In this document: one piece after another, positions 8,959 to 29,063 of the stretch
Layout: each line of letters begins with the position of its first letter
Numbering within the stretch: the first letter of the stretch is position 1
Virus record (IMG/VR): IMGVR_UViG_3300030103_005040
Location: 1-44,066 of that record
Origin: a virus
Length of the DNA stretch: 44,066 bases
Reading direction: 5' to 3' (one strand)
Translations under genes and position numbers: made by a program
The notes under the pieces: generated by a model
The model's input: the letters and a program-made list of their open reading frames with translations, nothing else
Database searches by the model: none
Told to the model about the DNA's origin: nothing

Positions 8959-9501
8959 TTAAATTTTGTTTTTAATGTGTTTATACATTGAGTTACCTAA
9001 TTTTTCGCCCATTTTACTGTCTGATTTATAGTGGGCGTGGGCAACTCGTCTACTATAAGATATATTTTTACCGGTTTTATTAAAAGCTGATTTAGCTTTA
9101 GGGTATTTATCGCCTAGCACTTTAGCTATTAATACACCTTGTACTGAATGACCTGATGGATATGACGGTGTTTTCATAGACTGCATCTCAATATCTTTCA
9201 TATTGATATTCATTTTTTTAGCCATTACTTTTGGTCTAGGTCTATTAAAGTGTTTCTTAAGTTCTAATATCACAGGCGCTGATTCTTTTATAAGTTTAGC
9301 AGCTGTTTTACTATCATAATCTTCAACTCCGTTGTCTTTAGCTGTTTTTTTAAACGCAGCTTCTATGTCGTCGTTATCTTTTACGAACTTTTTGTTTAAC
9401 GGTATACTTTCAAGCTCTTTAACTTCTTGCATCGTGTCAAAAGTATTATCGCCTGGTGGCTTCATCTTTTTAAACGAAGATATGTCAAAGTCTTTAAACA
9501 T
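8959..9501 (-). CDS. soluble PAP2-family acid phosphatase-like protein (180 aa)
   Basis: All three motifs of the PAP2/class A acid phosphatase superfamily are intact: K-x6-RP at Lys82-Arg89-Pro90, PSGH at 115-118 and SR-x5-H-x3-D at Ser150, Arg151, His157 and Asp161. His157 would be the nucleophile and His118 the general acid. There is no signal peptide and no membrane helix, so the enzyme would act in the cytoplasm or in the virion, unlike most bacterial relatives, which are periplasmic or membrane-bound. Possible substrates are phosphomonoesters, nucleotides or isoprenoid pyrophosphates; none can be chosen from sequence. Residues 1-75 are a charged extension. It lies among basic miniproteins, coupled by a one-base overlap to the gene upstream. 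Confidence 0.8.
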   Translation of the reverse strand: MFKDFDISSFKKMKPPGDNTFDTMQEVKELESIPLNKKFVKDNDDIEAAFKKTAKDNGVEDYDSKTAAKLIKESAPVILELKKHFNRPRPKVMAKKMNINMKDIEMQSMKTPSYPSGHSVQGVLIAKVLGDKYPKAKSAFNKTGKNISYSRRVAHAHYKSDSKMGEKLGNSMYKHIKNKI

Positions 9502-10096: not shown

Positions 10097-10492
10097 TTAA
10101 CAGTTCCATCTTCTTCTAGCAGCTCTACCTCTTTCGCCAGTCCAACCTTTTGATCTTGCACAAAATGATTTTCTACGCTTAGCAGCTTTACTACCTGGCT
10201 TCAACTTTGAAGGCTTAGTAGTTACAGCTGTTTGAAGCTTACTTCCAGGATTATTTCTTTTATATTCTCTAACGCCTTTTTCAGTCATGCCACCACCAGC
10301 AGCAGCTCCTGTAGCGCTTTTGTCTTTAGCTACTTTATTGAAGTTTTTTCCTTTACCTATAGTTCTGCGTGGATCAGCTTTTCGCATAGGAGAATCATCA
10401 AACACTTTTATAGGATTACTAGTTGTTTGAAATGTCCTTCTTCTACCGCAACCTGTTACAGGAAAAGGATTATTTTTTTGCGTATAAGCCAT
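10097..10492 (-). CDS. 131-aa basic Cys-containing protein with NNPF motif
   Basis: Starts MAYTQKNNPFPVTGCGRRR, the clearest copy of the shared N-terminal motif, followed by a DDSPMRKADPRR segment, a Gly/Ala linker (AAAGGGM), and the C-terminal PGSKAAKRRKSFCARSKGW...RRRWNC. The last part matches a short Cys/Arg/Trp signature I recall in small proteins of cyanophages and other marine phages (KSFCAR...RKWNC, perhaps DUF6321). Three Cys could form a metal site. It follows the giant 2408-residue gene by 30 bases and begins the miniprotein cluster. A virion or DNA-compaction role is inference. Confidence 0.65.
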   Translation of the reverse strand: MAYTQKNNPFPVTGCGRRRTFQTTSNPIKVFDDSPMRKADPRRTIGKGKNFNKVAKDKSATGAAAGGGMTEKGVREYKRNNPGSKLQTAVTTKPSKLKPGSKAAKRRKSFCARSKGWTGERGRAARRRWNC

Positions 10493-10522: not shown

Positions 10523-13500
10523 TTAATTGTGATGATAGCACAGTTGACTTTTATTAGTTGTACGTATGCTACATCTTTTGCCGCTACTTAATATTCTACG
10601 GCATTGTTTCTTTTTAGCTTTCTTTTCTTCTTTTATTTTTTCTTTAGCCTCTCTGACATCTTTGTACGTGTCAATACCCATCTGCCATTGATTCCAGCCT
10701 AAAGCTACAAATGTTCTTTGCATTGCAGTATTGTCTTCATTAAAAGCCTCTTTTAAATTATCAAGCTTAGTGTAAATCCTGTGTACAGGAGCATTTGTAG
10801 TACCTTCAATTAAAGAAGTTGTCATAGGATAAACTGGATTATCAATATCAAAAGCACCTATTTCTGCCATAACATCTTTATTGTATTTGTAGGTATCAGT
10901 AGCTCTTTTAATTTTTCTAGCTTTACTACCTATTTGTGGCGATAAGTTTAACACTTCTACAAACGTATTAAAGTAGTCGGCTTTATAGCCTTTATCACTT
11001 TCTTTCATAAAGCTTTTAACTACGTTCTTAAATGTAGATACCATAGCACCTTTTACACCAGAACCTCTTAGCCAACCATCAGCCATACTATTAACAAGAC
11101 TTTCTTTTCTTTGTTTATTCTTCACGTCTGCATAATAAAATGTTACGTCAGGATATCTGTACTTGTTTATAGTACCGTCTTTTATTCCTTTAGCATATTC
11201 TTTTTTAACGCTACCAGGCACTTGATCTTCTTCTGGCTCATCTTCTGCAAACAACGCTTGCTGCAAGCTGTAAAATATTAAGCTTTGTATAGCGCCATAA
11301 TAAGCTATTCTTGATAAATGATCTCTAATATTACCGCGTTTATTTGCAATGTTAGTTACAGCTTTTTTAATTATTCTATTATACTGTAGCGGTGTATTTT
11401 GGAAAGCTAGCAATAATCTACCTACAGGTGAAGCTTGCTGCTTAGATATACGATCAGGTCTACTAGACTGCTGAGACTCTTCTGTAATATCTTGGAAATC
11501 TATCATTGCTTGACTTTCAGCTTGATCTTGAGTCATACCTTCTTTAATTAAAGAACTAACTCTATTTCTATAGAAAGCAGCGCCACCAAAAGCAATTGCA
11601 AAACTATCTGCTATTTGCGTTGGTGTAAAACCTATTTTAAGTAAATACGCTAGTGCGTTAGCAGCTCCACCGCCACGGCTTAAACTGTCAGCTAAATCAG
11701 CTGTTTGTATGTCTTGCTGTAATCCAGATCTTCTAACTTTTAGTTGAGGTGAATTAAATAGCATTTTAAAATCTTTAGCAAACTGTGGAGCGTTAGATAT
11801 AGCTTTAGCAAAAGCAAATATATTATTGTCTGTATGATTTATAAAGTTTACAGTAGATATTGTTTGTAATACTGCAGATCGCATGTTAAAAAACATAATA
11901 GCACCAACAGATCCTTGTAACCAGTTTAAAGCTTTGTTAGTCGAAGCATTTTGTCCAGTCGGTCTGTTTTTACCAGTACGCATACGGTAAAGCATATCTT
12001 TTAACGACTCAACGTAATCAGTGCCCATAGCAGCTTCTAGCTTAGCCATTTGGGCTTCGTTATCTAACAACTCGTTTATATTCTCTTGCCACTCTTTAAG
12101 CGCGCCATCTCTATGTACTTTGTTCAAAGAGTTGTACATATCGCCTTTAATACTACTAGCTGTCCAAGTGTCAGTAGGTGCTAAGTATTGATCACCTTCT
12201 ACTTGCAACGACTTTCTAACCTTTAAGGCGTAATCAACCATATCAGCATCATTAGCCACTTTGCTAGCTATAGCTTTACGCTCAGCTGTAGTTAAGCCTG
12301 GCACGTCTAAGTCTTGTAAATCCCATAGATATATTCTTATAGCATCTTCATTGGTAAATTCGTTGTCAAACTTTTTCTTTAATTTTTTAATAACATCTTT
12401 ATGCTCTTTTCTTATTTGAGCATACGACTCCATCATGTTATATTGTATAGAGTTTAGTTTTCTGTAAGCTCTATTAAACGGATCAAAAAATACTTGTTTA
12501 AAAAACTTTACATCAGAGTCACCTTGCGCGCCTTTACCAGCAAGTCTTAGCATTAAACCTTGAAAGTCATCAGCACCTGGCGCAATAAAAAATTCTTTAC
12601 TACCTTTTTTAGCACCTATAATTTTAGCTCTTGCAGGATCTATTTCTTGATCAATACCTACAGTACGCTTAAGTATACTATCGAAATTTTGCTTTTTAGT
12701 TTTACTAAATTTTATTTTAGCTTGCACTGACTTGCCTTTAATGTCTAGCTGATCAAATATGTTTTGTACTGCTTCTACGTTTGTAATAGCGTCGTCTACA
12801 AAGTACATGTCATTATAACCTTCATTAGCGTATTTATCAAGTACCCACATAGCTTTAGCCTCACCAGTACTATTACCTAAACCTGTAATATTTTTTAAAG
12901 GTATATTAACACCTTCAGATTTTAACCAAGCATGTATTGCTTCTGCACTTTCTGGCGCTCTAGCTGTAAGTATAAATACATTATCAGGACCATACTTTTT
13001 AATTTGATTTTTCATTTTAGGTAATAGCGGGCCTGGCTTACCTTTAGTAACTTTATTAAAGTCAGTAAAGTCAAATTCATAACCTTGATTAGCTAAGTCT
13101 TCACCTACAAATGGCCATTGATCAGATAATATTTTTTTTGTTACACCATCTTTAGTCGCTATAATAACATTTTCACTAATACCTACAGTTTCGTCAAAAT
13201 CAAATATACTAGCACCTTTAGTCTTAGAAAAATAAGCCTGTGTTCTAGCTTGATCAGAAGCTTTAGTTATGTTTTGAGCAACGCTTAGCTTTTTTGATTT
13301 TGAAAATTTTATATTAGACTTTACGTTTTTATTGTCTTTTTTATTTAAAAGACTAAAATTTTGAGCCGGTATATCAAGTGCGCTTAACGAAGGTTCTATT
13401 CTTGCGCTAACAGTAACCATACCATTACTTTTTACTTTTCCAAAATCTATTCTTATTTGTAAAGGTATTTCTGTTTTTATATCTTCAGCTTTAGTTAAAC

Positions 13501-16500
13501 CTTCTATTTTAAGGCTAGCATCTTGCATGCTCATGTCAATTAAGCCTCTACCTTTTATATCTATAGCATGACTTGGTTTTAAGCCTTCTTTACCTTGTTT
13601 TTGTTGATATGCTTCAGCGAACTGTTTAAAAGTTATTGTTTGCTCTATGTCGTAAGCAAGATAATGTATATTATTACTACCTCTTACAACCTGTTGAATT
13701 GCTTCGTAACTTATTTCTAAGTTTTCTTTTTCAGTGTAAGAAACAGCATTATTATCAAACTCTTTAGCTACAGTAATTATGTCTTCAAAAACTTTTTTTA
13801 TGTCGTTTTCTATAGCTTTTTGTTTGTCACCATAAACTTCTTTAGATGCAACAACTTTTTTACCTTTTTTATAGTTCACGCTAACAGAAACTCCTCTAGC
13901 AGTATCACCTTTTATTTCTAAAGCTAAAACAACTTTTCCTGTAGTACGATCTATAACTCTAACATCTTGGTTATTATCTGTTTCGCTTGGCTTTTCTACT
14001 ATATAGTTATCAAGTTTCAGTTCTTTAAGCATAGAACTTAATCTTTTACCAGCGATTATTTCGTATTTCTTATGAAGCGCTACATCATCGCCATACTCGT
14101 CTAACTCTGCCTGAGAAATTACTTCATCACTTTGCAAATACTTTTCAAACTGTCTTTTTCTAAACTTATCTTTTACTCTATTTAAAGTTTCTTTATCTGT
14201 ATTTTTAGCAAACTCTAAAAACTTAGCGCTAGCTTCTGAATTACCTGCATTTAAAATTCTAAGACCTTTTCTATAATCGCTTCTTTGTTTAGCTGTTTGG
14301 CTAAATTTAAGGCCAGGCGCTCTATTAACTTTAACAGCAATATCGTTAACCATGACCTCTGTAGCTATATCTGGATTAGCAGCTACAAGTTCTTCCATTA
14401 TTTTAGGCTCTTGCATAGTTTCCATCATAGCGTCTTGAGACAGCTCAGTGACTATCATACGAGATAAACCGTCTTTTCTAGTTCCAAGCGTAGAAGCGCC
14501 AAGCTCATAGCCTAATACTTCTTGCATATTAGTGCCAAAGAAAAATGCTTGAAGTTCTTCTTGGGTAGGCATACGCTTCTCAGATAAAAATACGCCTTCT
14601 TCGCTTTTACCAATAGCATCAGGTGGTAGTTTACCTTGATCAATAGCTTTTTGTATATCCTCCTGCTTTGTAAGTCTTCTAATGGGTACAGTAAATATTT
14701 TTTTACCATCTTTTAATTTACCTTTACCTACAAGACGCTCCATAGCTACTAAATCTTGTACTGTAGAGAAGTCTATTATATTTTCAAAGTTGTTTAAAAC
14801 AAACTGTCTATATGAAGCTCCGCTGCCAATTGACTTTTGAACAATGTTCTTCATGGTCTTCTTTACCATGTTCTCAAAGTTGAGCAAAAACTTGCTAGCT
14901 GTTACGTCAGCCTTAAGCTTTCGTAGAGCTGTTCTAACGCCTTCTCTGACACTTTCTACCTGCGTCTCACCTATTAGTTTAGAACCGTCGTTGTTTTTTA
15001 ACTTATGCCTATATCTTGACTTTAATACGTTTTTATCTTCTTCTGTTTCTTGAGATCTATTTTGAGAATTAACATATAAGAATCCTAAGTTTTCTTCTTC
15101 AAGTTTAGCTAATGTAGGATCAGCTTCACCTTCAACAAGTTCTGCTGCGGTTCTACCAGAGTCGTCTATTGGCGCGTCTAACGACCTACCTGTAACAGTT
15201 TTTTTAGCTGACTTTGCAACATCACCCATTCTAAAGTTAAGACGCTGATTAATATAACCTGATAATCCAAACTTACCTTGTTCTGTACTTTCTTTTTCAG
15301 GATTAAATCCTAAAACATCAGGTATTAATTTAGCTTTAACATCTTCAATATAGTCAGCCATAGGCACGCCGTTAACATTAGCGTCTTCACCTTCAGTATC
15401 TATACCTTGTTTAGCTAATCTAGCTTTTATTAAGCCAGTTAGACCATCGCCATCAATCAAATAGTTGTAAGCTTCTATGTTTGGCCCAGCATCAAACTCT
15501 GCTTTAGTTTTAGCTTTTTGACCAATAGCATCGACTTTGCTTTGTATTTCAGCAGCTTTATTAGATATAGAAGCTTTTGTAGTAGTAGTCTCTTGATCTA
15601 CAGCCGCAAAAGCAGTTGCTCTTTCACCAAGTTTTCCAGCTTTAATATTTTTGTTGTACTCTTTTAAGAAGTTGTAAGCTTGTCTACCATTGCTAAACTC
15701 TTTTCTAAACAAAAAGCTATCTTCGCTAATCAAACCTCTTTCACTAAGTTTTCTTAAAACTTCTTGTATAGCGTTACCTATTTTGCTAAATACACCTTCG
15801 TTAAAAGTTATTTCATTTTTTGCAATAGCGTCAGAAAATACAGTAAACATTTCTTCAGACTGAAACACGGCATCGCCCTCTATACCATAACTGTTTTTAA
15901 GTCTTCTTTCAACAGCTCTTTTTTGCTGTCTAGTAAGCGTGTTCATAAAGCTTTTGCCAAGCTTTGCTCTAGCGTCTGTATCTAATTTTCCAAAAGAATT
16001 ACCTATTATACCATGAAGAAGTTCATGTGAACCTACGGATATAGCGCCTCTTTCACTAGCAACTTCTTTGTTAATATATATTTGATCACCAACAATAAAC
16101 CCATCACTACCAGTAACGTTTTTAGATTCTTTTACCTTACCTTCTTTTAGTAGTTGATTGTATGCTTCTTGAGCAGCGGCATCGTTGTCTAGTACATTTA
16201 CTTTTTTACCTATTTTAGCTCCTTCTTTTTCAGCAAAGCTTATGTTTTTTTCAAGTCTAGCTTCACTAACTTTTTGTTTAGCTTGATCTAAAGAAGCATC
16301 AACTTCTGCGGTTTCGTACTTTTTTAGTATGTTATCTATATCTGACTGTATTCTTTTCTTTTCAGCTTGGCCAGATCTAGTTTTTTTGTCTCCTAATTTT
16401 AAAAGATTTTTTTCTAACTTTAACAACTCAGCTCTATCTTCTACATTTGTTACTCTAGTGTCAAGTTGAGATTCAATTGCAGAGTCTAATCTTATATCAT

Positions 16501-17749
16501 TTATTTTATCTTTAGTAACAGCATCGTTTTCAATATCAATATTAACAGCTGCTAATTCTTCTGCAGTAGCATTATCAACATAATCATTTAAAGATTTTTC
16601 GCTTACTTTTACGCCATTAACATAGTATTTAGGCGAGTTTTTAACAGTAGACACTGTACCTAAAGCTAAGTCTAAAGGAGCTTTACCCATGCCAGCAATA
16701 CCTTCTAATATTATTTCTTGCTCATTAAATTCTTGACCAGCAACAGTCATACCAGCAGCTTCACCAGCAGAACCACCAACAGCTTCTATAGTAGCAGCGG
16801 TTGCACCTCCAGCTGTTTTTGAAACAATGTTACCTGCTTTTGACGTTGCTTTTGTTACAGCTCCAGCTCCTTTTATACCTACTAAACTTGATACGCCTTC
16901 TACAGTTCCTATAGCAACACCTCTAAGAGTAGCTTTTCTTTTAATTGCTCCTCTAGCATCATCATCAGACATCACAGCTCTTATGTTATCTGGTGTAAAC
17001 TTTAAATTTCTTTTATTTAACTCTTCTTGTAGAAGTTCGTTAAAAGTCATCATTGTTTCTGCCGCAGTGTTAGCTGTGCCAAAAAAAGCTGCAGCGCCAG
17101 CCGGTATAGCTCCAACACCGCCTGTAGCAAGCCCTGTAGCGCCACCAGCAACAAGGCCGCTACCACCACCAATAGCTAATATTTCTTTATTTGTAAGGCC
17201 AGCCATGCTTTGAACCATAACTTGCGCAAAACCGTCTAGACCTTCTTCTCCTATAGCTGACAACGTAGACATAAATATGTTTTCGCCTTCGTCTCTACTT
17301 TTTTGATAAGACTTAGACCATTTTTCTAACTCTACAAGATTACCTTTTTTAGCAGCTTCATTAACAGCTTTTATATACGTTTCAAGCTCTTTGTCAGACA
17401 TGCTCGCGGCTTCTGACTTACTTGATATAGAATAAATATCTTGAGATGGAGAGTAAGCATCAGCACGAGAAAGTCCGCTAGAAAGCGCTTCGTTTAATTC
17501 GCTTATGCTAGGCAGAAGCCACTCTTTAGCAGTCTTAAACCAAGAAGAGTTTTGGTCTTGTGTTTGGTCAGGTGTATAAGCAGATTTAAAAGTATCAAAG
17601 TCTTGATTAAAAAATCCTTTTTCAGTAATAGCATCAAATACTTTTTTTTGATAATCTTCATCAAGCATGGCATTGTTAAAATCATCAAAAGAGTCATTTA
17701 TCAAGCGAGCATCAAATATACTTTGATATAGTTTTTGTAGATTATTCAT
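10523..17749 (-). CDS. giant multidomain internal/polyvalent protein with HELLH and HAD domains (2408 aa)
   Basis: Residues 1-80 are helical. A Gly/Ala-rich membrane-active-looking region spans about 190-370. HELLH at 575-579, followed by a QSEEMFTVFSDA segment, is a zinc-peptidase signature. Residues about 835-895 contain YINQRLNFRMGDVAK and SLDAPIDDSGRTAAELV, reminiscent of sigma-factor sequence. A HAD phosphatase-like domain (about 1510-1670) has DFDET at 1517-1521, ILTAR near 1595 and Asp1652-Asp1653. Residues about 1940-2180 form a conserved C-terminal region of large phage proteins (LPD38-like, from memory). The protein ends with Cys2383, Cys2393, Cys2404 and His2407, a small zinc-knuckle pattern. 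KFS linkers precede or separate domains at 1149, 1482, 1507 and 1681. The layout fits polyvalent proteins ejected with phage DNA. It sits directly downstream of two internal virion proteins. Confidence 0.75.
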   Translation of the reverse strand: MNNLQKLYQSIFDARLINDSFDDFNNAMLDEDYQKKVFDAITEKGFFNQDFDTFKSAYTPDQTQDQNSSWFKTAKEWLLPSISELNEALSSGLSRADAYSPSQDIYSISSKSEAASMSDKELETYIKAVNEAAKKGNLVELEKWSKSYQKSRDEGENIFMSTLSAIGEEGLDGFAQVMVQSMAGLTNKEILAIGGGSGLVAGGATGLATGGVGAIPAGAAAFFGTANTAAETMMTFNELLQEELNKRNLKFTPDNIRAVMSDDDARGAIKRKATLRGVAIGTVEGVSSLVGIKGAGAVTKATSKAGNIVSKTAGGATAATIEAVGGSAGEAAGMTVAGQEFNEQEIILEGIAGMGKAPLDLALGTVSTVKNSPKYYVNGVKVSEKSLNDYVDNATAEELAAVNIDIENDAVTKDKINDIRLDSAIESQLDTRVTNVEDRAELLKLEKNLLKLGDKKTRSGQAEKKRIQSDIDNILKKYETAEVDASLDQAKQKVSEARLEKNISFAEKEGAKIGKKVNVLDNDAAAQEAYNQLLKEGKVKESKNVTGSDGFIVGDQIYINKEVASERGAISVGSHELLHGIIGNSFGKLDTDARAKLGKSFMNTLTRQQKRAVERRLKNSYGIEGDAVFQSEEMFTVFSDAIAKNEITFNEGVFSKIGNAIQEVLRKLSERGLISEDSFLFRKEFSNGRQAYNFLKEYNKNIKAGKLGERATAFAAVDQETTTTKASISNKAAEIQSKVDAIGQKAKTKAEFDAGPNIEAYNYLIDGDGLTGLIKARLAKQGIDTEGEDANVNGVPMADYIEDVKAKLIPDVLGFNPEKESTEQGKFGLSGYINQRLNFRMGDVAKSAKKTVTGRSLDAPIDDSGRTAAELVEGEADPTLAKLEEENLGFLYVNSQNRSQETEEDKNVLKSRYRHKLKNNDGSKLIGETQVESVREGVRTALRKLKADVTASKFLLNFENMVKKTMKNIVQKSIGSGASYRQFVLNNFENIIDFSTVQDLVAMERLVGKGKLKDGKKIFTVPIRRLTKQEDIQKAIDQGKLPPDAIGKSEEGVFLSEKRMPTQEELQAFFFGTNMQEVLGYELGASTLGTRKDGLSRMIVTELSQDAMMETMQEPKIMEELVAANPDIATEVMVNDIAVKVNRAPGLKFSQTAKQRSDYRKGLRILNAGNSEASAKFLEFAKNTDKETLNRVKDKFRKRQFEKYLQSDEVISQAELDEYGDDVALHKKYEIIAGKRLSSMLKELKLDNYIVEKPSETDNNQDVRVIDRTTGKVVLALEIKGDTARGVSVSVNYKKGKKVVASKEVYGDKQKAIENDIKKVFEDIITVAKEFDNNAVSYTEKENLEISYEAIQQVVRGSNNIHYLAYDIEQTITFKQFAEAYQQKQGKEGLKPSHAIDIKGRGLIDMSMQDASLKIEGLTKAEDIKTEIPLQIRIDFGKVKSNGMVTVSARIEPSLSALDIPAQNFSLLNKKDNKNVKSNIKFSKSKKLSVAQNITKASDQARTQAYFSKTKGASIFDFDETVGISENVIIATKDGVTKKILSDQWPFVGEDLANQGYEFDFTDFNKVTKGKPGPLLPKMKNQIKKYGPDNVFILTARAPESAEAIHAWLKSEGVNIPLKNITGLGNSTGEAKAMWVLDKYANEGYNDMYFVDDAITNVEAVQNIFDQLDIKGKSVQAKIKFSKTKKQNFDSILKRTVGIDQEIDPARAKIIGAKKGSKEFFIAPGADDFQGLMLRLAGKGAQGDSDVKFFKQVFFDPFNRAYRKLNSIQYNMMESYAQIRKEHKDVIKKLKKKFDNEFTNEDAIRIYLWDLQDLDVPGLTTAERKAIASKVANDADMVDYALKVRKSLQVEGDQYLAPTDTWTASSIKGDMYNSLNKVHRDGALKEWQENINELLDNEAQMAKLEAAMGTDYVESLKDMLYRMRTGKNRPTGQNASTNKALNWLQGSVGAIMFFNMRSAVLQTISTVNFINHTDNNIFAFAKAISNAPQFAKDFKMLFNSPQLKVRRSGLQQDIQTADLADSLSRGGGAANALAYLLKIGFTPTQIADSFAIAFGGAAFYRNRVSSLIKEGMTQDQAESQAMIDFQDITEESQQSSRPDRISKQQASPVGRLLLAFQNTPLQYNRIIKKAVTNIANKRGNIRDHLSRIAYYGAIQSLIFYSLQQALFAEDEPEEDQVPGSVKKEYAKGIKDGTINKYRYPDVTFYYADVKNKQRKESLVNSMADGWLRGSGVKGAMVSTFKNVVKSFMKESDKGYKADYFNTFVEVLNLSPQIGSKARKIKRATDTYKYNKDVMAEIGAFDIDNPVYPMTTSLIEGTTNAPVHRIYTKLDNLKEAFNEDNTAMQRTFVALGWNQWQMGIDTYKDVREAKEKIKEEKKAKKKQCRRILSSGKRCSIRTTNKSQLCYHHN

Positions 17750-17758
17750 GCAGAACTT

Positions 17759-19360
17759 TTATTTATCAATATTTAAAAGAAAATTGTTTTCTTCTTCTAC
17801 TTCCTCTTCTTTAATAGGTATACCTGCCGCTAGATGCATGGCTTTCTGAAGTCTTTCTGCTTCGGTGTCATCTCTATCACTAAAAGCCTTGTTGTCAAAC
17901 TCAAAAGTACTTAAATCTTCTACTTCGCCAGCTGGATTAGTGTATTTAACTCGTAGTACGTCATATCCAGCGTCTGTAAATTCAAAGCCATACTTACTAT
18001 ACTCTCTATTTAAAGTATTTATTACAAAGTCATCATCACCAAACTCAAATAAATGATCATCTTTCGACATAGGATCTTGAGTCGCAGGATTAGTAGCAAT
18101 CTGCCAACCTTTCTGCGTTATACCTGCAAACGGACTTTTAGCTATGCCAAATTGTTCTCCAGTACCAGTTTGGTCTACATATACCGCGTCATCGTTTAGC
18201 TTTGGCAGTAATTTTTTATTAAGACTACCAGTTGGTAAAGGCTTAGGTTTTTCAAGTGGAATTACTCCTTCTGTTGTTTCAGTTTTTTTAGCAGCTTGTA
18301 TTTTATTATATTGACTAGCAACTTTTTCTTTCATTTTGCTATGATACCAAGCAGAGAAGTGTTTTTTAACATTACCTTTTTTACCTGACTTTTCAGTGAA
18401 AGATCCATCAACCAAAACACCACCGTTTCTTATTCTCTCGTATTCTGCTTCTACTGCTTCCTTATCATTAACGTCAATACCTTGATCTTCATACCAAGAA
18501 TTAAACCAGTCGCTAGTATTGAAGCCCATAGTAACATCAGCCTCTTGATTATCAAATATAAATGATTTTAAGCCAGCTTCTTTAATACCATCCATGCTCC
18601 ACAAGTTGTTGATCTTAGTATGCAGTACAGCATCGTCTACAAATTGTGCGTTTATTACTTGGTCGTAAAGCTCAGCATGCTTTGTCATTACGATAGAATT
18701 AGTATAAGTAGGACCAGCAGCATCTAAGCTGGATATAGCTACAGGATCTTTATTAGGATCTTTAGGATCTTTCCAATGTAGTTTGCCATCAATATTTACA
18801 AAGTTAGTTTTATCACCGTTTTGAATTTCAGTATACATATCAAGCATTGACTCGCTCATGCCCTTAGTCAACTCTTGCACCCTGTTGTCTTTACGCATTA
18901 AGTTTCTAATGCCTAGCAGTTTTTTATTATCTTCTCTTAGCTGCGCGCTAGTTGTATTTATTTTGTTTAACTCGTTAGCAAGCTCTTGATACTTAGGATT
19001 ACGAATATCCATAAAAGACAACTGTCTGTTTATCTCTCTAAATTTTAAATTGTTTTCTTGCATGATGCTGTTTACAATATCGCCAGTACCGTCGTATAAT
19101 AATGATTCATCAATCTCTGGATTAGCAGCTATGTAAGCTGCAAGACCTGCTTTTTGTGCAGTCTCAGCTTTATTTTTTAGCTCAATAAAAGGCTGTGTAA
19201 AGCTTTTTATATTTGATAGCTTAGTTAAAGGTTGTAATGCCTCTTGTCTAGCGTTTGCTGATAACTTTTCAAATAATCCACTACCAGTAGACTTGCTTAC
19301 GTTTTTTGTTAAGTCTCCAAGAAAGTCTTGGCTTTTCATAAAATCTTTTTCTTCTGCCAT
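17759..19360 (-). CDS. internal virion protein, predicted (533 aa)
   Basis: A 533-residue soluble, largely helical protein starting MAEEKDFMKSQDFLGDL. Residues 90-170 have alternating charges and long helices (FREINRQLSFMDIRNPKYQE), the centre contains several Trp residues (ADVTMGFNTSDWFNSWYEDQ), and the C-terminus is acidic (KEEEVEEENNFLLNIDK). No catalytic motif is seen. It lies between a gp14-like protein and the giant multidomain protein, the place where podoviruses encode the set of internal core proteins that leave the capsid during DNA ejection (T7 gp14, gp15, gp16 order). The function is inferred from this position. Confidence 0.6.
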   Translation of the reverse strand: MAEEKDFMKSQDFLGDLTKNVSKSTGSGLFEKLSANARQEALQPLTKLSNIKSFTQPFIELKNKAETAQKAGLAAYIAANPEIDESLLYDGTGDIVNSIMQENNLKFREINRQLSFMDIRNPKYQELANELNKINTTSAQLREDNKKLLGIRNLMRKDNRVQELTKGMSESMLDMYTEIQNGDKTNFVNIDGKLHWKDPKDPNKDPVAISSLDAAGPTYTNSIVMTKHAELYDQVINAQFVDDAVLHTKINNLWSMDGIKEAGLKSFIFDNQEADVTMGFNTSDWFNSWYEDQGIDVNDKEAVEAEYERIRNGGVLVDGSFTEKSGKKGNVKKHFSAWYHSKMKEKVASQYNKIQAAKKTETTEGVIPLEKPKPLPTGSLNKKLLPKLNDDAVYVDQTGTGEQFGIAKSPFAGITQKGWQIATNPATQDPMSKDDHLFEFGDDDFVINTLNREYSKYGFEFTDAGYDVLRVKYTNPAGEVEDLSTFEFDNKAFSDRDDTEAERLQKAMHLAAGIPIKEEEVEEENNFLLNIDK

Positions 19361-19373
19361 AATTTAGTCTGTA

Positions 19374-20258
19374 TTATAAACGTGTTAAGCCTAAAGGCTT
19401 AAACAGCGAGCTTTCTCCATAATTAAATGTAGGATTATTTATGCCGCCAGTAACAAAATCTTGCGCTGGTGGTGGCGTTGACGCTGGACCTGCTCCACTT
19501 CCAAATGCTCCGCTAGCTACACCGCCAGCTATTGCACTACCTAAATTACCTAGTGAAGAGCTGAATTCTGATTGAGCTGCGTTTAACGCTTGGCTAGTTG
19601 CTGTTTGTCTGTCAGCTGATAAACCATACAGGCTAGCTATTCTATTCTGTTCTTGCTGCTGAACGTACATGTCGCCTTTTCTTCTCAACATATCTGCTTG
19701 ATTAGCACCTTGACGTTGCAGCATGTCTATTCTTTGAGCGTCTTGTCTTTGTAGTGAGTCTATTCTACTAGCCTCGCCTCTACGTCTTGTTTCACTAGCT
19801 TGTTCTTGTCTAGCAATATCTATAGAAGCTCGTCTTGCTTGTTCAGTGCCAATATTAGCTACTTGTTGTGCTAAACCAGCCACACCGCTACCACCAGCTA
19901 CTCCTCTTAAGTTTTGTAATATATTTGCTTGTTGTTGTTGTGATTGCTCACGCATAAAATCTGCTGCTTGAGTATTTACTTGTGGCTCTTCGTATACGTT
20001 TTCCATACCTGTAAACTGACTTTGTATGCCTTCGTATGGATTTGTTATTCCTTCGTATGGATTTGTAAACTCAATAGCGTTGTAAGCTTCTCTAGCTTCT
20101 GCTAATCTTTCTCTTGCTTCAGCATCTCTACGTCTAGAGTCTCTTCTAGCTTTACCCGCTCCAAACAGTCCCATTACAGAAGTACCTAAACTTATTGCTG
20201 TTACAGGATCTATTGGAAGTTTCAACGGACTTATTTTTTTTAAACCTACTATTGCCAT
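19374..20258 (-). CDS. gp14-like internal virion (ejection) protein (294 aa)
   Basis: Starts MAIVGLKKISPLKLPIDPVT with a short hydrophobic helix AISLGTSVMGLFGAG (residues 22-36), then a long Arg/Gln/Ala-rich coiled coil (residues about 38-215) with repeated RRxDAEA and QRQxAxRIDMLQRQ units, and ends in a Gly/Ser/Pro-rich tail. This layout, a membrane-active N-terminus followed by a coiled coil and glycine patches, matches T7 gp14-type ejection proteins, which form the outer-membrane part of the DNA conduit. A direct repeat encodes TNPYEGI twice (about residues 65-78). The position, just before two large internal proteins, agrees. Confidence 0.65.
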   Translation of the reverse strand: MAIVGLKKISPLKLPIDPVTAISLGTSVMGLFGAGKARRDSRRRDAEARERLAEAREAYNAIEFTNPYEGITNPYEGIQSQFTGMENVYEEPQVNTQAADFMREQSQQQQANILQNLRGVAGGSGVAGLAQQVANIGTEQARRASIDIARQEQASETRRRGEASRIDSLQRQDAQRIDMLQRQGANQADMLRRKGDMYVQQQEQNRIASLYGLSADRQTATSQALNAAQSEFSSSLGNLGSAIAGGVASGAFGSGAGPASTPPPAQDFVTGGINNPTFNYGESSLFKPLGLTRL

Positions 20259-20298: not shown

Positions 20299-20637
20299 TT
20301 ATTTACTACTTTCCGATACCTCTGCAGATACAGAAAACAATTTACCTTTATTATCAGAGTCTAACTCTAGCTTAACTCTAGCGTAATAGCCTTTTAAACC
20401 TGATGTATTTACTTTGTTGTTTTTTACAAACATTAAAAAATCACCTTCTTGAGGTGTTGCTGGAGTTTCAACTGTAGTTATTGTTGATCCACTAATGTTA
20501 GTTACTTCTCCAATTATTATAGGGTTATCTAAACTATTAGATATTGGACCTGCACCATTTAACGGCGCGTAATATAATGTATCACCTACTTGAAGCGAAT
20601 CATTTATCTTTATATTTTCGTTTAATTCAATTATCAT
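20299..20637 (-). CDS. small tail-associated protein (112 aa)
   Basis: A 112-residue beta-rich protein starting MIIELNENIKINDSLQVGDT with GDTLYYAPL and ISGSTITTVETPATPQEGDF, which looks like a small SH3- or OB-like barrel found in many phage structural proteins. It contains no signal peptide or catalytic motif. The start overlaps the stop of the 408-residue gene by four bases (ATGA). A short gene-free stretch of 40 bases follows before the gp14-like gene. The role is unknown; virion association is inferred from context. Confidence 0.6.
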   Translation of the reverse strand: MIIELNENIKINDSLQVGDTLYYAPLNGAGPISNSLDNPIIIGEVTNISGSTITTVETPATPQEGDFLMFVKNNKVNTSGLKGYYARVKLELDSDNKGKLFSVSAEVSESSK

Positions 20638-21860: not shown

Positions 21861-24800
21861 TTATTCTTCGTCTACAATAATTTCATCGTACTCAACTTTA
21901 GCGATAACACCTAAGCCTTGTACGTTTAAACTTCCTATATCATCTGAGTTTGTATTATCAAAAGAACCTCCTCTTATATAGTTATAGTATTTACCTTCTT
22001 TTTTAATAAATTCTGGTATAGATCCTTTTTGCAAGTCAGTAACTATATTTGAAACAAACCAACCATCACTACTATTTAAGTTGTCGTAGTTTGCATCAGT
22101 AGCACCACCAACATGCTCAACATAACCGTTTCTTTTACCTGCACTACCTTCGTAGGATAATGTTTTAAAATCTTTTACTACAGGCGTAGAGTCGTTAAAT
22201 ATAAAATCAATAAAAGAATTTACTCTTGCTTGATCGTAAAAAACATTGTTATTAGTTTCTTGTTCGTGGTGTTTGTATATTGCTCCGTTATTAAATGTGT
22301 AATAATCTCCACCTAAACTTACCCCGCTCTCTGGAATAAATGATTTAAAACTTATCCAACCTTTAGCTTGTTCACTATAGCTTAACGTTTTTGGATTAAA
22401 ATCTTCATCTACTACAGGTATCATAGAAATGTTATCTATAGTTAAACTAGCTCCATTGTTCTGACCACCAAAAGCTCCAAAGTAAAAAACTAAAGTATTA
22501 TAATACACGCTTATACCTTGACCTGTTACAGCAGTAAATGTGTCGTCTATAGTAAAGTATTCATTAAAATGACTAACACCAGTCTGCGCTTGAGTAGGAT
22601 ATAAAGTTCTGTAATGGAAGCCTTTTCCTTGAGAGTTGAAGTAATATATTCTACAAAAAGAAGTTCCAGCGCTACCGTTACTATAATCAAACGAAAGATT
22701 ATATCTAGTACCAGTTCTTAAATTACCTAAGTTTTGTCTAGCATAAACGGCAGACGTTGAAGTTGGGTTAATATTGTCAAAAACTAAAGATCCACTATCC
22801 CAATATGCATCGTTTTGCTCGTTTTCATTGCTGTTGTTTTCGCTTTCAAAAGTCCAGCTATCTGCTCCACCGCCAGTAAATAGAGATGTAGCATCTTTTA
22901 TTGATATATTACTTACAGAGCCTTCAAAAGTGTTGTTGCCTGTTTGAGAAAACCTTAAAAAGTACGCGCCAGTTGTAGCAGCCGGATCTTCCGCTCCAAT
23001 GCTTGAACTATCTGGCTGAGAAACTATGGTTGGCGTATAATCAGGTGTAGTATTATAATTTATAACGTAATCTCCAGCTTCAGTAATGTTAGCTATAAAT
23101 CCAGCAGGTCCTGAGTCAGTTGGCACTTCAACTCTAACGTTTAAAGTTCCACTTATAGATCCTGTGTCTACATTATTTCCAACAGTGAAAGACAAATTAT
23201 ATCCAGCATAAGTAGGCTGTAAATAATCTGCGTCAGGATTAAACGCCGCAGGCGGTGCGCCAGTGTCACCAGCGTCGTTACCATTATAAAGGTTTGCAAC
23301 AAGATACTCTGGATTTTTAGTGTTAAATTGAACCGCGTTATTTTTAAAATACACCATCGGTCTAGCTCTTTCAGTTGTAGTATACTCATCGTCAACATAA
23401 AACTGTTCTATGTATTTGTAAGCCGCGTGGGGCATAGTATAGTTTTCGTTTTTTATTTCCCACTGACTAGGCTCTGACATAGTAGGTATATCTGTTATGT
23501 TGTATAGCCTAATTTTGTCTAAAGTAAATCCAGGATTCTCATCTTCACTAGTCCAACTGCGCAGCTTAAATGTAGGAAGATCTTGCTCAGCTTCAAATAT
23601 AGCTAGTAGTATAGGCGTATTAGATCCGTCCCAGTATCTAGTAGCAGGCATTAGTCTCAAATCATCACCTATTGTTCCTGCGCCAGATATTTGACCAAAA
23701 TGATAAGGTAAAAGCTCTCTAAACTCAGGGTCAGTGTGATTTTTACCAAAAAGATTGTTAGGGTTATCATTCGTATCATCAGCTGATATATCTGTACCGT
23801 AGTTGTATTCTAAAAATACATTATCAACTATAATACCATAGTTATCATAAATATCTGATATATTAGAAGCATCTACCTCTACCATATACCAATTTCCAGC
23901 TGTAATAGTGTCGTTTTCAGTTACAGCTTGCACGTGGTAAACACTTTCAGCTTCATCGTTTGGCACACGAGTTTTATTTGTTGTTTCATAAAAGTTTGTA
24001 GCAGCAATGTCAACTTCAGTAAAGTCTGCGCCACCAGTAAAAGCATTGTTAAGTAATTCTTCACCAAGAAGTGTTTCAACTAGTTCTACACCATCATCAA
24101 AAGAATCGTTAGCAATTATGTTTTCAGTATAACCTTCTCTTATAGTTAAATTATACTCTTGCTTATCTTCATCGTACGTCCCTAAGCACATAATATTGTC
24201 ATCTGCTAAATTATCACCAAACCAGTCTTTCATACCAGCGTCTGATATTGGAGTTAAACCGTCCATTGATAATCTTAGCACAGATCGTCTTTGCTTGTCT
24301 GTAAAGTAAGCTCTATATGATTCGCTAGCAAAAGACTCAGGATTTTTAGATATACCAAACTCACCTACAAATGGAGTGACTTGACCAAGCACTCTTTCGT
24401 TAGCAACTAGTTGAGGATTACCGTCAGCGTTAAATACAGCGTCTTTATTACTAAGAACTTTTACAACTCTGTCTTCACAGAACACTACTAAGTTAGTTTG
24501 TCTTTGAAATAACTTTTGTATACTACCGTACGTAGGATTTAAGTCTTTAGTTATCTTTTGAGCTTGTATAAACTGATTTAAATTATTAACACCAGTGTTA
24601 GAATTATATAGCCCAGAGAATATTAAACCGTGTTCTCTTATTTCTTCTCTATAAGGTTCATCTAACGTTGTAGATGCTCTAGCACCTGTTCTTATAGAAA
24701 CTCCGTTAAAATCATCTCTAACAGTGTTAGACTCAACACCATTATTAAAAGCAAATACATTGTAAAAATTTGAGTAATAAGGCAGTGATGGTGAAAGTTT

Positions 24801-27800
24801 TACTTTAAAACTTAATCTATAACCGTAATTACCTTTACCACCTCCTGTGATATAATAATCGCCACTTGCGTTTGCTTGTGTTATCTCAACATGAACAACA
24901 CTGCCATCAGCTCTAGTTATAGCTAAAATTTTACTTTCATAATCTAGCTCTGTAGTTCCGTCAGACGGATCGTAATAATTAAACCCACGATCTTCATCAT
25001 CTAGTCCATTAACAACAATACTTAAATCTTCTGTTGATGTATTCCAGTAAGCTTGACGAATATACCTTTCTTTAGGCAATTGAATTCCATCAACAGCTTT
25101 GTTAAAGTTTAATATCTCTACTCTAGACCCTATTGGAAATATAATATCTTTATTTTCTTGTGTTATTTCTACAGGTATGGCATCGCTAATTTCGTAGTAA
25201 ATATCTAAGTCAGCTGATTTTTCAGGTTCTGTTTCAAATAGAGCTTTATTAGTAGTAGCATCACTAGAGAACGATTTAGCGCTTTCTGCTACAAACTCAA
25301 ATAAACTGTTGCTACTATTAACATCAAAACTAGTAGTGCCTTGACTTAAAGGCTTAAAAGCACTATCTTGAGGATTTTTATCTAGTTTTAAAGCGTAAAC
25401 TATACGTCTATTAGATTTAGCTCCAAAAGCTTCTAACTTGTCTAATACGCTAGTAAATTGCGAGTTGTTTGTAGCCGTACCGGCTTCAGCCCAAGCGATT
25501 ACAGCCTCTTCTACACTGTCACCGCCATTAACGTAAGTTGAAGTACCGGCATTCCACACTTTACGCATACGCCATGGTGTATGATTGTACACGTGCTTTA
25601 CTTTAACGCCTAATATAGTATATATTTCTTCGTTAGTGTCTTCTGAAAATCTAAACTTTTTACCGGAAACTAAATTACTAACCATTTCTTGTACAGCCTG
25701 CACGTCTTCAGCTCCATAAGTAGGATCAAACTGTCTTTCGTGTTGAGTTTGATAATCTGGATCATATCCGCGTAAAAAGCTATACTGCACGTTGCCGTTA
25801 TTAGAAAACTCTTCAACACCTGGTGCTGGAGCTAAATAGTGCCCAGCCGTACCGCCTTGATTAACATCATACCAATGTGTTTCCATTTCTACAAAACCTG
25901 TTCCAGTACCGTGATTAAAAGCGCCACCGCCCCATATACCTTGAAGATGTTTACCTAAACAATTAGGTCCTCTAAATGGAATATTTGGATCATAACTACC
26001 TTCTCTTGTAAATAAATCTACACCAGGCCCTAGAAATGAAACATGCATATAATATCCACTAAGATCATAATCGCTTGCTAAATCATTAATTCTATCACTT
26101 CCGTATATTGTGCTATTAGACCACGCTCTTCCACCGTTACCGTCTGCTGGGCCGCTAATAGGATTAACGTAGTAATCAGTGCTAGCTTGTATAATAGGCT
26201 CAATACCGTTAACGTACCAGTCGACTTCATTGTCAGCGTCTACGGTAAAAGCTACATCAGTAGAGGCGTCCATAGCTGTAGTGTCGTATTCAGCTGTTCC
26301 ATATTCGTTGTAATTTTCTAGCATCCAACCCCAATCAGCTGTTTCTGCTAAGTTAGAAGCGGTGATAATACCGTAAGAAGTTTCGTAATTATTAATATCA
26401 GTATTATTGTAAGATATTCCAGAGTTTGGAAGATCTGCAGATAAATTAGGCGTTGCCGCAGTCCACACTAGCTTTGGATAACGAATAATAGGACTACCTA
26501 CCCAACCTTGACCTGACTCTCTAGCGTATAAAGTATCTGAAGGATTAGATGCAGCCATATACATACCATCAATAAAAAACTTACCTTGCCCTCCACCAAA
26601 ACCTAAAGACTCGTTTAAAAGAGCGTCCCATGCTATCTTAGTGTTTGTTAAACTACCTTGCTCGTGTATGTCGTCTGGAGTTGCTGAAGTATTGTTATAG
26701 TAATAAGTAGTAATTTCGTCATAGTATTGAACATTGCTATTTTTTGTAGTACTAGCGCTAGCGTCAGCTTCATCTAACCATAAGTAAACTTTTTCAGCGT
26801 GCAATATTTTGTTTGTAGCTTCTAACTGTGAAGGCTCGTTTATAAGCTGAGTTTTTATTAAATCATCTGCAGCTATTTTAACAAAGAAGTGTCCAGAAAA
26901 GTTTTCATCTGAATATCTATCTTTTCTTTGTACTTTAAAGTTAAGCTTGTCAGGCATATTTGCAGTAGTCGCTAAAGCTCCATCATTATCTAATCCATCT
27001 TTGTTAGCTATTAAAGCGTCTTGCAGTTGTATTGTTTCACTTAATCTAATGATATATTCTGTATCTTGAACTCTTATGTTTGTGACCTTATATCTTTTAG
27101 ATTGTAAGCCACCTAAAGACCATGATATATAAAGATTTTCTATTTTATTAGATGACTCTGTTCCTCCACCTTCGCTGTTTGTTAAAGCAGCGCCATCAGT
27201 ATCAATAGCCTGCCAAGCAGTTTTATTAATTATTATAGTATCAGTTTGTTGATCTATACGCTGCAAGCTGCCGTTTGACACGTCTGCAGTAAAAATTCCA
27301 TTATCAGTATCAGTTAAAAAATCACTAGCATTATTTGTAACTGATCCAAGATCGTAAAACTTATATGATATTGCTTCAGGAGCTTCGTTGCTTACGTCTA
27401 ATACTTTATATTTATTGTCTTCACTTACTCTAAAAGGCGTAGGCTCTAGTAATACTGTTTTTAAAACAATGTAGTCATCAACAGATATTTTAGATCTATC
27501 TTTTGATGGAAAAGAAAGGTATACATGATCTTCTTCGTTTTCAAATTGACTATGTGCAAACGGAATATAAACCCTTTGATTTAATAAATTATAGTATTGG
27601 CCTGAAGATTCTTTTATATAAAACTTATAGTATTGAGCCCAAGGCGGAATATCAGAATTTATTTTTACACTAGCTTTCCAGCTTACTTCGCTAGGATAAT
27701 TTTGAAGCGTACTAAAACCGCCTTTCTCAGAAGTAAATACAGGAGTTTCTCTTCCGTAAGTATCACCAAATAATACTCCTACTTGATAACTTCTATCTGA

Positions 27801-29063
27801 CTTTAATGATCTAATAGGCTTATCTTGTTCATCATAAAAGTATGGCCATGCCATAGCGTCTATGTCAACAGAGTCTACGTCGTAGTTCTGCGTGTAGTTA
27901 CCATAAACTATTCTGTTACCAACAACCTCTTGTGCTAAAGCTTTTTTAGGAACGTTGTCAAAAGGCCTTAGTAATTGCTCTTCTGCTATTGCTGTAAAAA
28001 CATTTTCACTTTTTATAGTATAGCTTCCTGAAGTATTAAGATAATTACCTGGTTCATTAAAACCTAAATCACCTATATAACTTCCTGTAGCACTCCAACT
28101 TGGATCTGTTTTTTTTATCTTAGCTATAGAGTATACTACATTAGAGTCTTCTGTTTTGTAAAGTATTTCTACTTCAACAACGTCGTCAGGCGTGCTAGCA
28201 TCTACAAACCCATAAACTTCTATTGATCTAATATAGTTTAACATAGCTGTATTGTACGACTCCGACGTATCGTAGAAGTTGTAGCTATTGTAATCGTCAA
28301 TGTACTCCGCGTTAAATACTGGCTGAGTAAACGGGCTAAAAGCAGATAATTGATTATCTTCGTACTTATACCTAACACAAAATCTAGGTATTTGTCTTTC
28401 AAATATAGAAGCCTTTTTGTTACCTTTAGAAGAGATTACTTTTATTTGAGGAGCTCTAAGAGGTTTTTTCTTTATAACAGTTAAATGCTCTTCTTTTAAG
28501 TACCCGTAGTTTACGCCATCAAGATAAAATCTTGAGTGAACACTGTTGTTTTGAGGTTCATTTTGTTTACCTGAATAATTTTTAGATAAATCTATTTTTT
28601 TAGGCTCGTTATCGCCGTCAGTCCAAAACAAATAATTATCTATAATATTTATAGCTGTTATTTGCTTTCCAGTAAATTTTAAAAAAGGATCTACAGTAAT
28701 TTCGTTTCCATCACTATCTTCTAAGCTAGGCGTTCTGCTTAGATCTACAGCTACGAAAGTAGCATAGTCAGCTTTAACATCGTACTTAGCTATAAAGTCT
28801 CTAGTGCTAGATCTAACAAAATAATATATGCAGTCTGTTAAAACATCTTCAATACTACCTATACAAACTGATGTAGAATCAAAAGCGCCTATAGCAGACA
28901 GAGCTTTAGTTCCAAGAATACTTTGAGCACTACCAACATCTGAACCATCAGACGTAGTGATCTGTATATTCATCGCATCTCTATATTGTCCTTTAGGTAA
29001 AATTCTCTCATCAAGGTCTTTATTCATTTTACCTTGAAGAAAATTGTTAGTAATCTCTGCCAT
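21861..29063 (-). CDS. giant tail nozzle / stabilisation-type protein with lectin-like modules (2400 aa)
   Basis: The N-terminus EITNNFLQGKMNKDLDERIL followed by PKGQYRDAMNIQ is the hallmark I know from tail stabilisation (P22 gp10-like, T7 gp12-like nozzle) proteins of marine podoviruses. Core sequence of this type continues to about residue 1640, including FGISKNPESFASESYRAYF near 1545. Three successive beta-sandwich modules follow (about 1660-1860, 1905-2055 and 2065-2210), each ending in a strand like LDKIRLYNI or IDNISMIPV, as in carbohydrate-binding jelly rolls. A conserved C-terminal block (about 2225-2400) has SLGGDYYTFNNGAIYKHHEQ. It would sit at the end of the short tail, closing the channel. 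Its size is about three times that of T7 gp12, mostly from inserted domains. Confidence 0.75.
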   Translation of the reverse strand: MAEITNNFLQGKMNKDLDERILPKGQYRDAMNIQITTSDGSDVGSAQSILGTKALSAIGAFDSTSVCIGSIEDVLTDCIYYFVRSSTRDFIAKYDVKADYATFVAVDLSRTPSLEDSDGNEITVDPFLKFTGKQITAINIIDNYLFWTDGDNEPKKIDLSKNYSGKQNEPQNNSVHSRFYLDGVNYGYLKEEHLTVIKKKPLRAPQIKVISSKGNKKASIFERQIPRFCVRYKYEDNQLSAFSPFTQPVFNAEYIDDYNSYNFYDTSESYNTAMLNYIRSIEVYGFVDASTPDDVVEVEILYKTEDSNVVYSIAKIKKTDPSWSATGSYIGDLGFNEPGNYLNTSGSYTIKSENVFTAIAEEQLLRPFDNVPKKALAQEVVGNRIVYGNYTQNYDVDSVDIDAMAWPYFYDEQDKPIRSLKSDRSYQVGVLFGDTYGRETPVFTSEKGGFSTLQNYPSEVSWKASVKINSDIPPWAQYYKFYIKESSGQYYNLLNQRVYIPFAHSQFENEEDHVYLSFPSKDRSKISVDDYIVLKTVLLEPTPFRVSEDNKYKVLDVSNEAPEAISYKFYDLGSVTNNASDFLTDTDNGIFTADVSNGSLQRIDQQTDTIIINKTAWQAIDTDGAALTNSEGGGTESSNKIENLYISWSLGGLQSKRYKVTNIRVQDTEYIIRLSETIQLQDALIANKDGLDNDGALATTANMPDKLNFKVQRKDRYSDENFSGHFFVKIAADDLIKTQLINEPSQLEATNKILHAEKVYLWLDEADASASTTKNSNVQYYDEITTYYYNNTSATPDDIHEQGSLTNTKIAWDALLNESLGFGGGQGKFFIDGMYMAASNPSDTLYARESGQGWVGSPIIRYPKLVWTAATPNLSADLPNSGISYNNTDINNYETSYGIITASNLAETADWGWMLENYNEYGTAEYDTTAMDASTDVAFTVDADNEVDWYVNGIEPIIQASTDYYVNPISGPADGNGGRAWSNSTIYGSDRINDLASDYDLSGYYMHVSFLGPGVDLFTREGSYDPNIPFRGPNCLGKHLQGIWGGGAFNHGTGTGFVEMETHWYDVNQGGTAGHYLAPAPGVEEFSNNGNVQYSFLRGYDPDYQTQHERQFDPTYGAEDVQAVQEMVSNLVSGKKFRFSEDTNEEIYTILGVKVKHVYNHTPWRMRKVWNAGTSTYVNGGDSVEEAVIAWAEAGTATNNSQFTSVLDKLEAFGAKSNRRIVYALKLDKNPQDSAFKPLSQGTTSFDVNSSNSLFEFVAESAKSFSSDATTNKALFETEPEKSADLDIYYEISDAIPVEITQENKDIIFPIGSRVEILNFNKAVDGIQLPKERYIRQAYWNTSTEDLSIVVNGLDDEDRGFNYYDPSDGTTELDYESKILAITRADGSVVHVEITQANASGDYYITGGGKGNYGYRLSFKVKLSPSLPYYSNFYNVFAFNNGVESNTVRDDFNGVSIRTGARASTTLDEPYREEIREHGLIFSGLYNSNTGVNNLNQFIQAQKITKDLNPTYGSIQKLFQRQTNLVVFCEDRVVKVLSNKDAVFNADGNPQLVANERVLGQVTPFVGEFGISKNPESFASESYRAYFTDKQRRSVLRLSMDGLTPISDAGMKDWFGDNLADDNIMCLGTYDEDKQEYNLTIREGYTENIIANDSFDDGVELVETLLGEELLNNAFTGGADFTEVDIAATNFYETTNKTRVPNDEAESVYHVQAVTENDTITAGNWYMVEVDASNISDIYDNYGIIVDNVFLEYNYGTDISADDTNDNPNNLFGKNHTDPEFRELLPYHFGQISGAGTIGDDLRLMPATRYWDGSNTPILLAIFEAEQDLPTFKLRSWTSEDENPGFTLDKIRLYNITDIPTMSEPSQWEIKNENYTMPHAAYKYIEQFYVDDEYTTTERARPMVYFKNNAVQFNTKNPEYLVANLYNGNDAGDTGAPPAAFNPDADYLQPTYAGYNLSFTVGNNVDTGSISGTLNVRVEVPTDSGPAGFIANITEAGDYVINYNTTPDYTPTIVSQPDSSSIGAEDPAATTGAYFLRFSQTGNNTFEGSVSNISIKDATSLFTGGGADSWTFESENNSNENEQNDAYWDSGSLVFDNINPTSTSAVYARQNLGNLRTGTRYNLSFDYSNGSAGTSFCRIYYFNSQGKGFHYRTLYPTQAQTGVSHFNEYFTIDDTFTAVTGQGISVYYNTLVFYFGAFGGQNNGASLTIDNISMIPVVDEDFNPKTLSYSEQAKGWISFKSFIPESGVSLGGDYYTFNNGAIYKHHEQETNNNVFYDQARVNSFIDFIFNDSTPVVKDFKTLSYEGSAGKRNGYVEHVGGATDANYDNLNSSDGWFVSNIVTDLQKGSIPEFIKKEGKYYNYIRGGSFDNTNSDDIGSLNVQGLGVIAKVEYDEIIVDEE

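Follow-up and report, generated by a model that had tools for sequence, protein, structure and literature searches.

Does the 2408-residue protein encoded in this window (the whole 44,066-nt stretch of IMG/VR virus record IMGVR_UViG_3300030103_005040) carry several activities in a single chain, and if so, how are these arranged and delivered? The record is linear and, at 44 kb against 61-71 kb in related records, probably a fragment. The explanation that we consider quite probable as a whole takes this protein to be the polyvalent protein of a marine podophage of Bacteroidota type, with a constant core of zinc peptidase (zincin), HAD phosphatase and C-terminal module (C-module), exchangeable cassettes, a short motif at the joints, and probable delivery with the virion.

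The giant gene and its relatives

The chain of 2408 residues reported in the first-pass annotation, which had named no strand, is real: it is encoded on the minus strand by an ORF with an ATG start and no interruption, whereas the plus strand of the same interval is crowded with stops. The start is supported by relatives L055 and L006, in which residues 1-50 are 78-84% identical, and the sequence following the short N-terminal segment is exchanged even between nearest relatives.

10523..17749, minus strand: giant polyvalent protein gene, 2408 aa, an intact ORF with its start kept in L055 and L006
17570..17749, minus strand: short N-terminal segment, residues 1-60, conserved in the nearest relatives (78-84%) with a sharp fall after it

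Searched alone against Pfam, the window protein (P0001) matched no family, and hence a family was built from relatives: a first scan supplied 44, and scanning with a profile of the C-module confirmed 225 stretches, 80 of which went into the set. The GTDB genome collection supplied just two relatives in the C-module scan, both metagenome-assembled genomes (L053 and L054; Sphingobacteriales and Maricaulis) whose contigs may be of phage origin and have ended up in a host bin. With tblastn, isolated phages gave no match or a single weak fragment. The 60 non-redundant full-length relatives measure 1634-3936 aa, and in all 60 an HExxH motif lies 784-1233 aa ahead of FDFD[ED]T; as any HExxH occurs in 1.2% of shuffled sequences, this arrangement is far beyond chance. 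Positions 8354-15476 of L044 hold a near copy of the L023 gene, split into three ORFs by a frameshift or sequencing error.

A constant core of zinc peptidase, HAD phosphatase and C-module

Conservation among the relatives shows a constant core, consisting of a predicted peptidase of gluzincin type, a HAD phosphatase and an all-helical C-module.

15650..16252, minus strand: gluzincin-type metallopeptidase domain, residues 500-700 (invariant H575, E576, H579 and E633 in 53 sequences; order of secondary structure elements)
16013..16027, minus strand: HELLH motif, residues 575-579 (sequence; invariant positions in 53 segments)
15851..15853, minus strand: E633, likely third zinc ligand (invariant in 53 sequences)
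12716..13222, minus strand: HAD phosphatase domain, residues 1510-1678 (invariant motifs; Foldseek; DUF2608)
10625..12700, minus strand: conserved all-helical C-module, residues 1684-2375, ~700 aa (conservation, model, profile comparison)
10526..10603, minus strand: zinc-knuckle-like tail, C-x9-C-x10-C-x2-H, residues 2383-2408 (about half of relatives)

The HELLH motif, noted earlier as a zinc-peptidase motif, is the sole HExxH of the chain, and conservation supports a peptidase domain around it: among the 53 zincin segments, with a mean column identity of 18%, the four residues listed above are the only invariant columns. Judged from the sequence, they are the ligand set of a gluzincin, that is HExxH with a downstream Glu. 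In the predicted model of the middle part, which has a low pTM (0.36), strands 516-520, 550-553 and 556-560, helix 572-587 bearing HELLH and a helix from 633 bearing the Glu follow the order described for polyvalent zincins (PMC5512222). No zincin was among the Foldseek matches listed for this model, and the assignment was therefore based on conservation and element order; Pfam M78 and Zincin_1 gave weak matches in five relatives. The domain is retained in 60/60 full-length relatives and never lost, while its sequence varies widely: compared with L055 in 50-residue windows, the zincin region is only 14-38% identical, against 74-94% in most windows of the C-module (lowest 62%).

For the HAD domain, the full set of motifs claimed in the first-pass annotation (1517-1521, about 1595, 1652-1653) is in place: DFDET at 1517-1521, T1595 in 'LTAR', K1632, and D1652-D1653 in 'VDD', with D1517, D1519, T1521, T1595, K1632, D1652 and D1653 (motif I DxDxT, motif II T, motif III K, motif IV DD) invariant among 28 sequences. 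Profile and structure checks on the DFDET segment agree with this: DUF2608, which we take to be a Pfam family of the HAD clan, was matched by 51/53 HAD segments (best 2e-6; the window's own segment at 0.008 is below cut-off), and with a 918-residue model as Foldseek query ~160 residues aligned to HADs (Nir2 LNS2, p-nitrophenyl phosphatases), with probability up to 0.97 and with E-values above 0.6 owing to the long query. By motifs and modelled fold, residues 1510-1678 are a HAD superfamily domain. A ResA match to residues 1575-1618, covering 40 residues inside the HAD with a different fold, was taken as chance.

The possible role of the HAD is best approached through three relatives in which it is paired with a P-loop kinase, a domain lacking in most relatives and in the window protein. 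In L014 (from residue 2064) and L035 (from residue 2436) the kinase is inserted within the HAD, directly after motif I, and matches polynucleotide kinase (phrog_505; 7.8e-9 in L014), while in L041 a related kinase is placed after the HAD. The FDFDDT of L014 and L035 was considered as a second HAD and rejected, being motif I of a single HAD interrupted by the kinase. T4 polynucleotide kinase-phosphatase (PseT) likewise pairs a kinase with a HAD, but there the kinase is N-terminal to the HAD; direct homology of the HAD to PseT was rejected as profile comparison aligned 12 residues only and phrog_415 is generic to HADs, and the window protein has neither full-length HAD similarity nor the N-terminal kinase of the PseT type. 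Kinase-HAD fusions in jumbo phages were assigned to RNA repair (PMC7824862), and the kinase in the three relatives hints at nucleic-acid end healing, which is our leading but uncertain guess. An RNA ligase family is present in 6/18 related records (5 above cut-off), and is absent from the kinase-bearing ones and from the closest relative.

The HAD probably dephosphorylates nucleic-acid ends or nucleotides, the least certain step of the explanation, and might undo host nuclease damage early in infection. Whether the substrate would be small or signalling nucleotides rather than RNA or DNA ends is evenly balanced: DUF2608, the best family match, names no substrate, the Foldseek matches are to p-nitrophenyl phosphatases and Nir2 LNS2, phrog_415 matches in 14/14 control genomes and is therefore HAD-generic, and the closest relative has no RNA ligase, whereas the three relatives with a polynucleotide-kinase-like domain fused into the HAD or next to it point to nucleic-acid ends.

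The conserved C-terminal region, also part of the initial description, was borne out by 43-52% identity to 27 relatives. When compared with a viral fold library, the model of HAD and C-module matched close uncharacterised proteins of uncultured viruses at 40-41% identity, and many phage giants at 10-15% identity (E about 1e-11 to 1e-4), including a PolyVal ADP-ribosyltransferase, a large polyvalent protein-associated domain (LPD), ART-PolyVal and the structural protein of Tenacibaculum phage Gundel_1. An independent profile comparison (hhalign) also related the C-module to Gundel_1 gp074 (E 5e-7). Homology of the module to the MW202828 giant, elemo gp18 or phi38:1 gp101 was looked for and not detected. 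Its LeuT-type matches in Foldseek were rejected as chance similarities between helical folds. As the module is common to other polyvalent and structural giants, it would be a likely virion anchor or packaging part. The zinc-knuckle-like tail was found in 31/59 relatives, clustered on the C-module tree.

Exchangeable modules and a recurring motif at their joints

Outside the C-module, the window protein and L055 are near 20% identity over residues 61-719 (which include the zincin) and 1121-1511, with residues 1-60 and most of 720-1120 conserved.

16277..17404, minus strand: Gly/Ala-rich N-terminal module, residues 116-491 (phrog_32588; exchangeable, 13/61 relatives)
14315..15592, minus strand: middle helical module, residues 720-1145 (type common to 21/61 relatives)
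13310..14287, minus strand: exchangeable slot, residues 1155-1480, possible PD-(D/E)xK-like nuclease (weak; ~20% identity to L055, weak EcoRV fold matches)
14297..14311, minus strand: FSK joint A, L1147-K-F-S-Q1151 (linker lacking conservation apart from F at 90% and S at 93%)
13223..13312, minus strand: FSK joint B, IKFSK 1480-1484 and YFSK 1506-1509, directly before the HAD (motif scan)
12701..12715, minus strand: FSK joint C, IKFSK 1679-1683, directly after the HAD (motif scan)

On a tree of 59 C-modules, the start of each set approximately by position from the HAD, the N-terminal module changed at least 9 times, with clustering no higher than for shuffled labels, and the middle module also at least 9 times; long branches make the individual placements of the window protein, L023 and L041 unsure. 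The tree shows repeated exchange of both modules, and cassette slots are shown at the N-terminus, in the middle and directly before the HAD. The Gly/Ala-rich stretch described as a possible membrane-insertion region does exist (about residues 186-360), but hydropathy gives no clear membrane segment (best 19-residue value 1.45), and in 48/60 relatives no segment ahead of HExxH exceeds 1.6. In the slot before the HAD, residues near 1261-1279 resemble a PD-(D/E)xK motif, and the Foldseek matches to EcoRV are weak (no E-value better than 2.8, probability at most 0.33). A sigma-70-like factor at residues 740-950, weakly matched with a wide profile, was rejected when the match vanished under a dedicated profile.

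The motif [VIL][KM]FS[K/E/Q], referred to as FSK, recurs at the joints between modules, and is most easily seen at residues 1149-1150 (joint A), where F and S stand out from a linker with no other conservation. A matrix trained on this joint located the motif just ahead of the HAD in 14/38 proteins (1.8 expected), just past the HAD in 25/36 (1.8 expected) and, less clearly, ~150 residues past HExxH in 7/39 (2.2 expected). The 30 proteins outside the training set had 71 matches versus 23 by shuffling, concentrated at the same joints, with L120 having GILFSK, GIMFSK, GIMFSK and RIMFSK at four joints. Strong matches numbered 51 in the giants (many of them training sites) versus 2 in a comparable quantity of other large ORFs. 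All these counts are inflated by relatedness, and the effect is greatest past the HAD, as the joint there is inherited.

The FSK motif may be a processing site. Put in full, and to be taken as tentative, the joints would form a processing code: an injected polyprotein would be divided into separate effectors by cuts at [VIL][KM]F-S-[K/E/Q], and cassettes would be exchanged between the joints. The cuts would be made during delivery or once it is complete, by the zincin of the same chain or another protease, and the modules would then act separately. Self-processing of polyvalent proteins via their zincins was proposed by Iyer et al. (PMC5512222), although neither a named processing site nor recurring FSK joints were found in the main text of that paper. 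The zincin of the present family is far more variable than the FSK motif, which would be odd if it cuts there and counts against self-processing.

Probable delivery, alternative readings and significance

The genes around the giant follow the order of Bacteroidota podophages.

17759..19360, minus strand: upstream 533-aa protein at the position of phi38:1 gp100 (annotated structural), without sequence match
19374..20258, minus strand: upstream 294-aa protein at the position of phi38:1 gp099 (annotated virion structural), weak match to virion structural phrog_13764 (0.015)
21861..29063, minus strand: 2400-aa muzzle-type tail protein (phrog_14478 2e-114; crAss_MUZ_C below cut-off; homology to phi38:1 gp097 and elemo gp22)

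The window has the gene order of phi38:1, which runs terL, portal, ..., gp097 (muzzle-type), gp098, gp099, gp100 and gp101 (1691 aa); in that phage gp097-gp101 carry structural annotations. The same genomic place is taken by Flavobacterium phage elemo gp18 (3694 aa) and the MW202828 giant (3859 aa); the label 'structural protein' is given to giants at this place in podophages of Cellulophaga, Flavobacterium and Tenacibaculum, and profile comparison indicates that two of them have a module in common with the window protein. The window TerL is 62% identical to that of MW202828 and 46% to those of Flavobacterium elemo phages, with weaker relatives in Maribacter, Cellulophaga and Tenacibaculum podophages. 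The muzzle assignment is based on the homology to phi38:1 gp097 and elemo gp22 and on the sub-threshold match to the crassvirus muzzle C-domain. This protein is ~900 aa longer than its isolate homologues, and its long regions at about 566-1423 and 1653-2226 find no match in them. A 112-aa ORF (20299-20637, minus strand) corresponds to the far C-terminal end of muzzle-type proteins (elemo gp22 1405-1491); the muzzle gene seems to be in two pieces, separated by a 408-aa ORF. Next to the giant on its downstream side are genes for a PAP2-type phosphatase (8959-9501, minus strand, 8.9e-7) and a DUF6321 protein (10097-10492, minus strand, 5.5e-11). A 608-aa protein (5817-7643, minus strand) has a C-terminal Por_Secre_tail secretion sorting domain (E 4.9e-8), unusual in a phage gene, and this together with the isolated hosts of relatives suggests a Bacteroidota host.

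Virion proteomics or mass spectrometry for these giants was not found in the literature. Synteny and comparison with the crassviruses suggest that the giant most likely travels in the particle as internal cargo and leaves it together with the DNA: cargo proteins gp45-gp50 of PhicrAss001 are large, encoded beside the muzzle gene, carried inside the particles and ejected (PMC10172136), a likeness in size and position, and the crassvirus giants are RNA polymerase-associated, unlike the window protein.

Phage polyvalent proteins are likewise giant multidomain chains with mixed activities, module shuffling and zincins with HExxH and a downstream Glu (Iyer et al. 2017, PMC5512222). The window protein combines disparate activities in one polypeptide (zincin and HAD, by conservation) and has the C-module fold (PolyVal-ART, LPD) and zincin layout in common with annotated polyvalent proteins; together with module exchange and a genomic place shared with structural giants, this supports the polyvalent nature first proposed for it. 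It differs in having a HAD in the constant core; words for HAD phosphatases are absent from the main text of PMC5512222. Gundel_1 gp074 has part of the C-module and an HExxH with weaker zincin similarity, but lacks the HAD and instead contains a GNAT-like segment below Pfam cut-offs, whereas elemo gp18 matches the zincin profile (E 1.7e-7), with the C-module undetected and an FDFD[ED]T-type motif not found.

Two other readings have to be weighed against cargo cut into effectors. The giant could be an ejection or tail-channel structural protein that stays in one piece, its zincin maturing the virion or aiding DNA entry and FSK being a flexible linker or recombination-tolerant joint; we regard this as possible but doubtful. 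The gene adjoins tail and internal virion genes, giants at this place are annotated structural, and the virion RNA polymerase of N4 has a zincin and yet enters the particle uncut (PMC5512222), but relatives swap entire modules and enzymatic cassettes (kinase, GH108), which fits an effector role better, and F and S are kept in linkers without other conservation. About as doubtful is that the zincin is itself an effector cutting host proteins, with an unrelated phage or host protease cutting the FSK joints: this would agree with a zincin among the most variable parts of the chain next to a constant joint motif, and with the contrast between zincin and C-module in L055, but not with its retention in every full-length relative, unlike the exchangeable cassettes.

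Beyond the first-pass annotation, the analysis adds the module structure, the FSK joints and a possible nuclease-like cassette; what is new is a constant zincin-HAD-C core in many uncultivated phages, together with exchange slots and a joint motif. Polyvalent proteins were proposed to deliver many effectors at once, and a large family in which the peptidase site is invariant and a motif recurs at the joints makes the step from one chain to several working parts directly testable, while reading the sequence between the joints would allow candidate domains for early infection to be catalogued in uncultivated marine phages.
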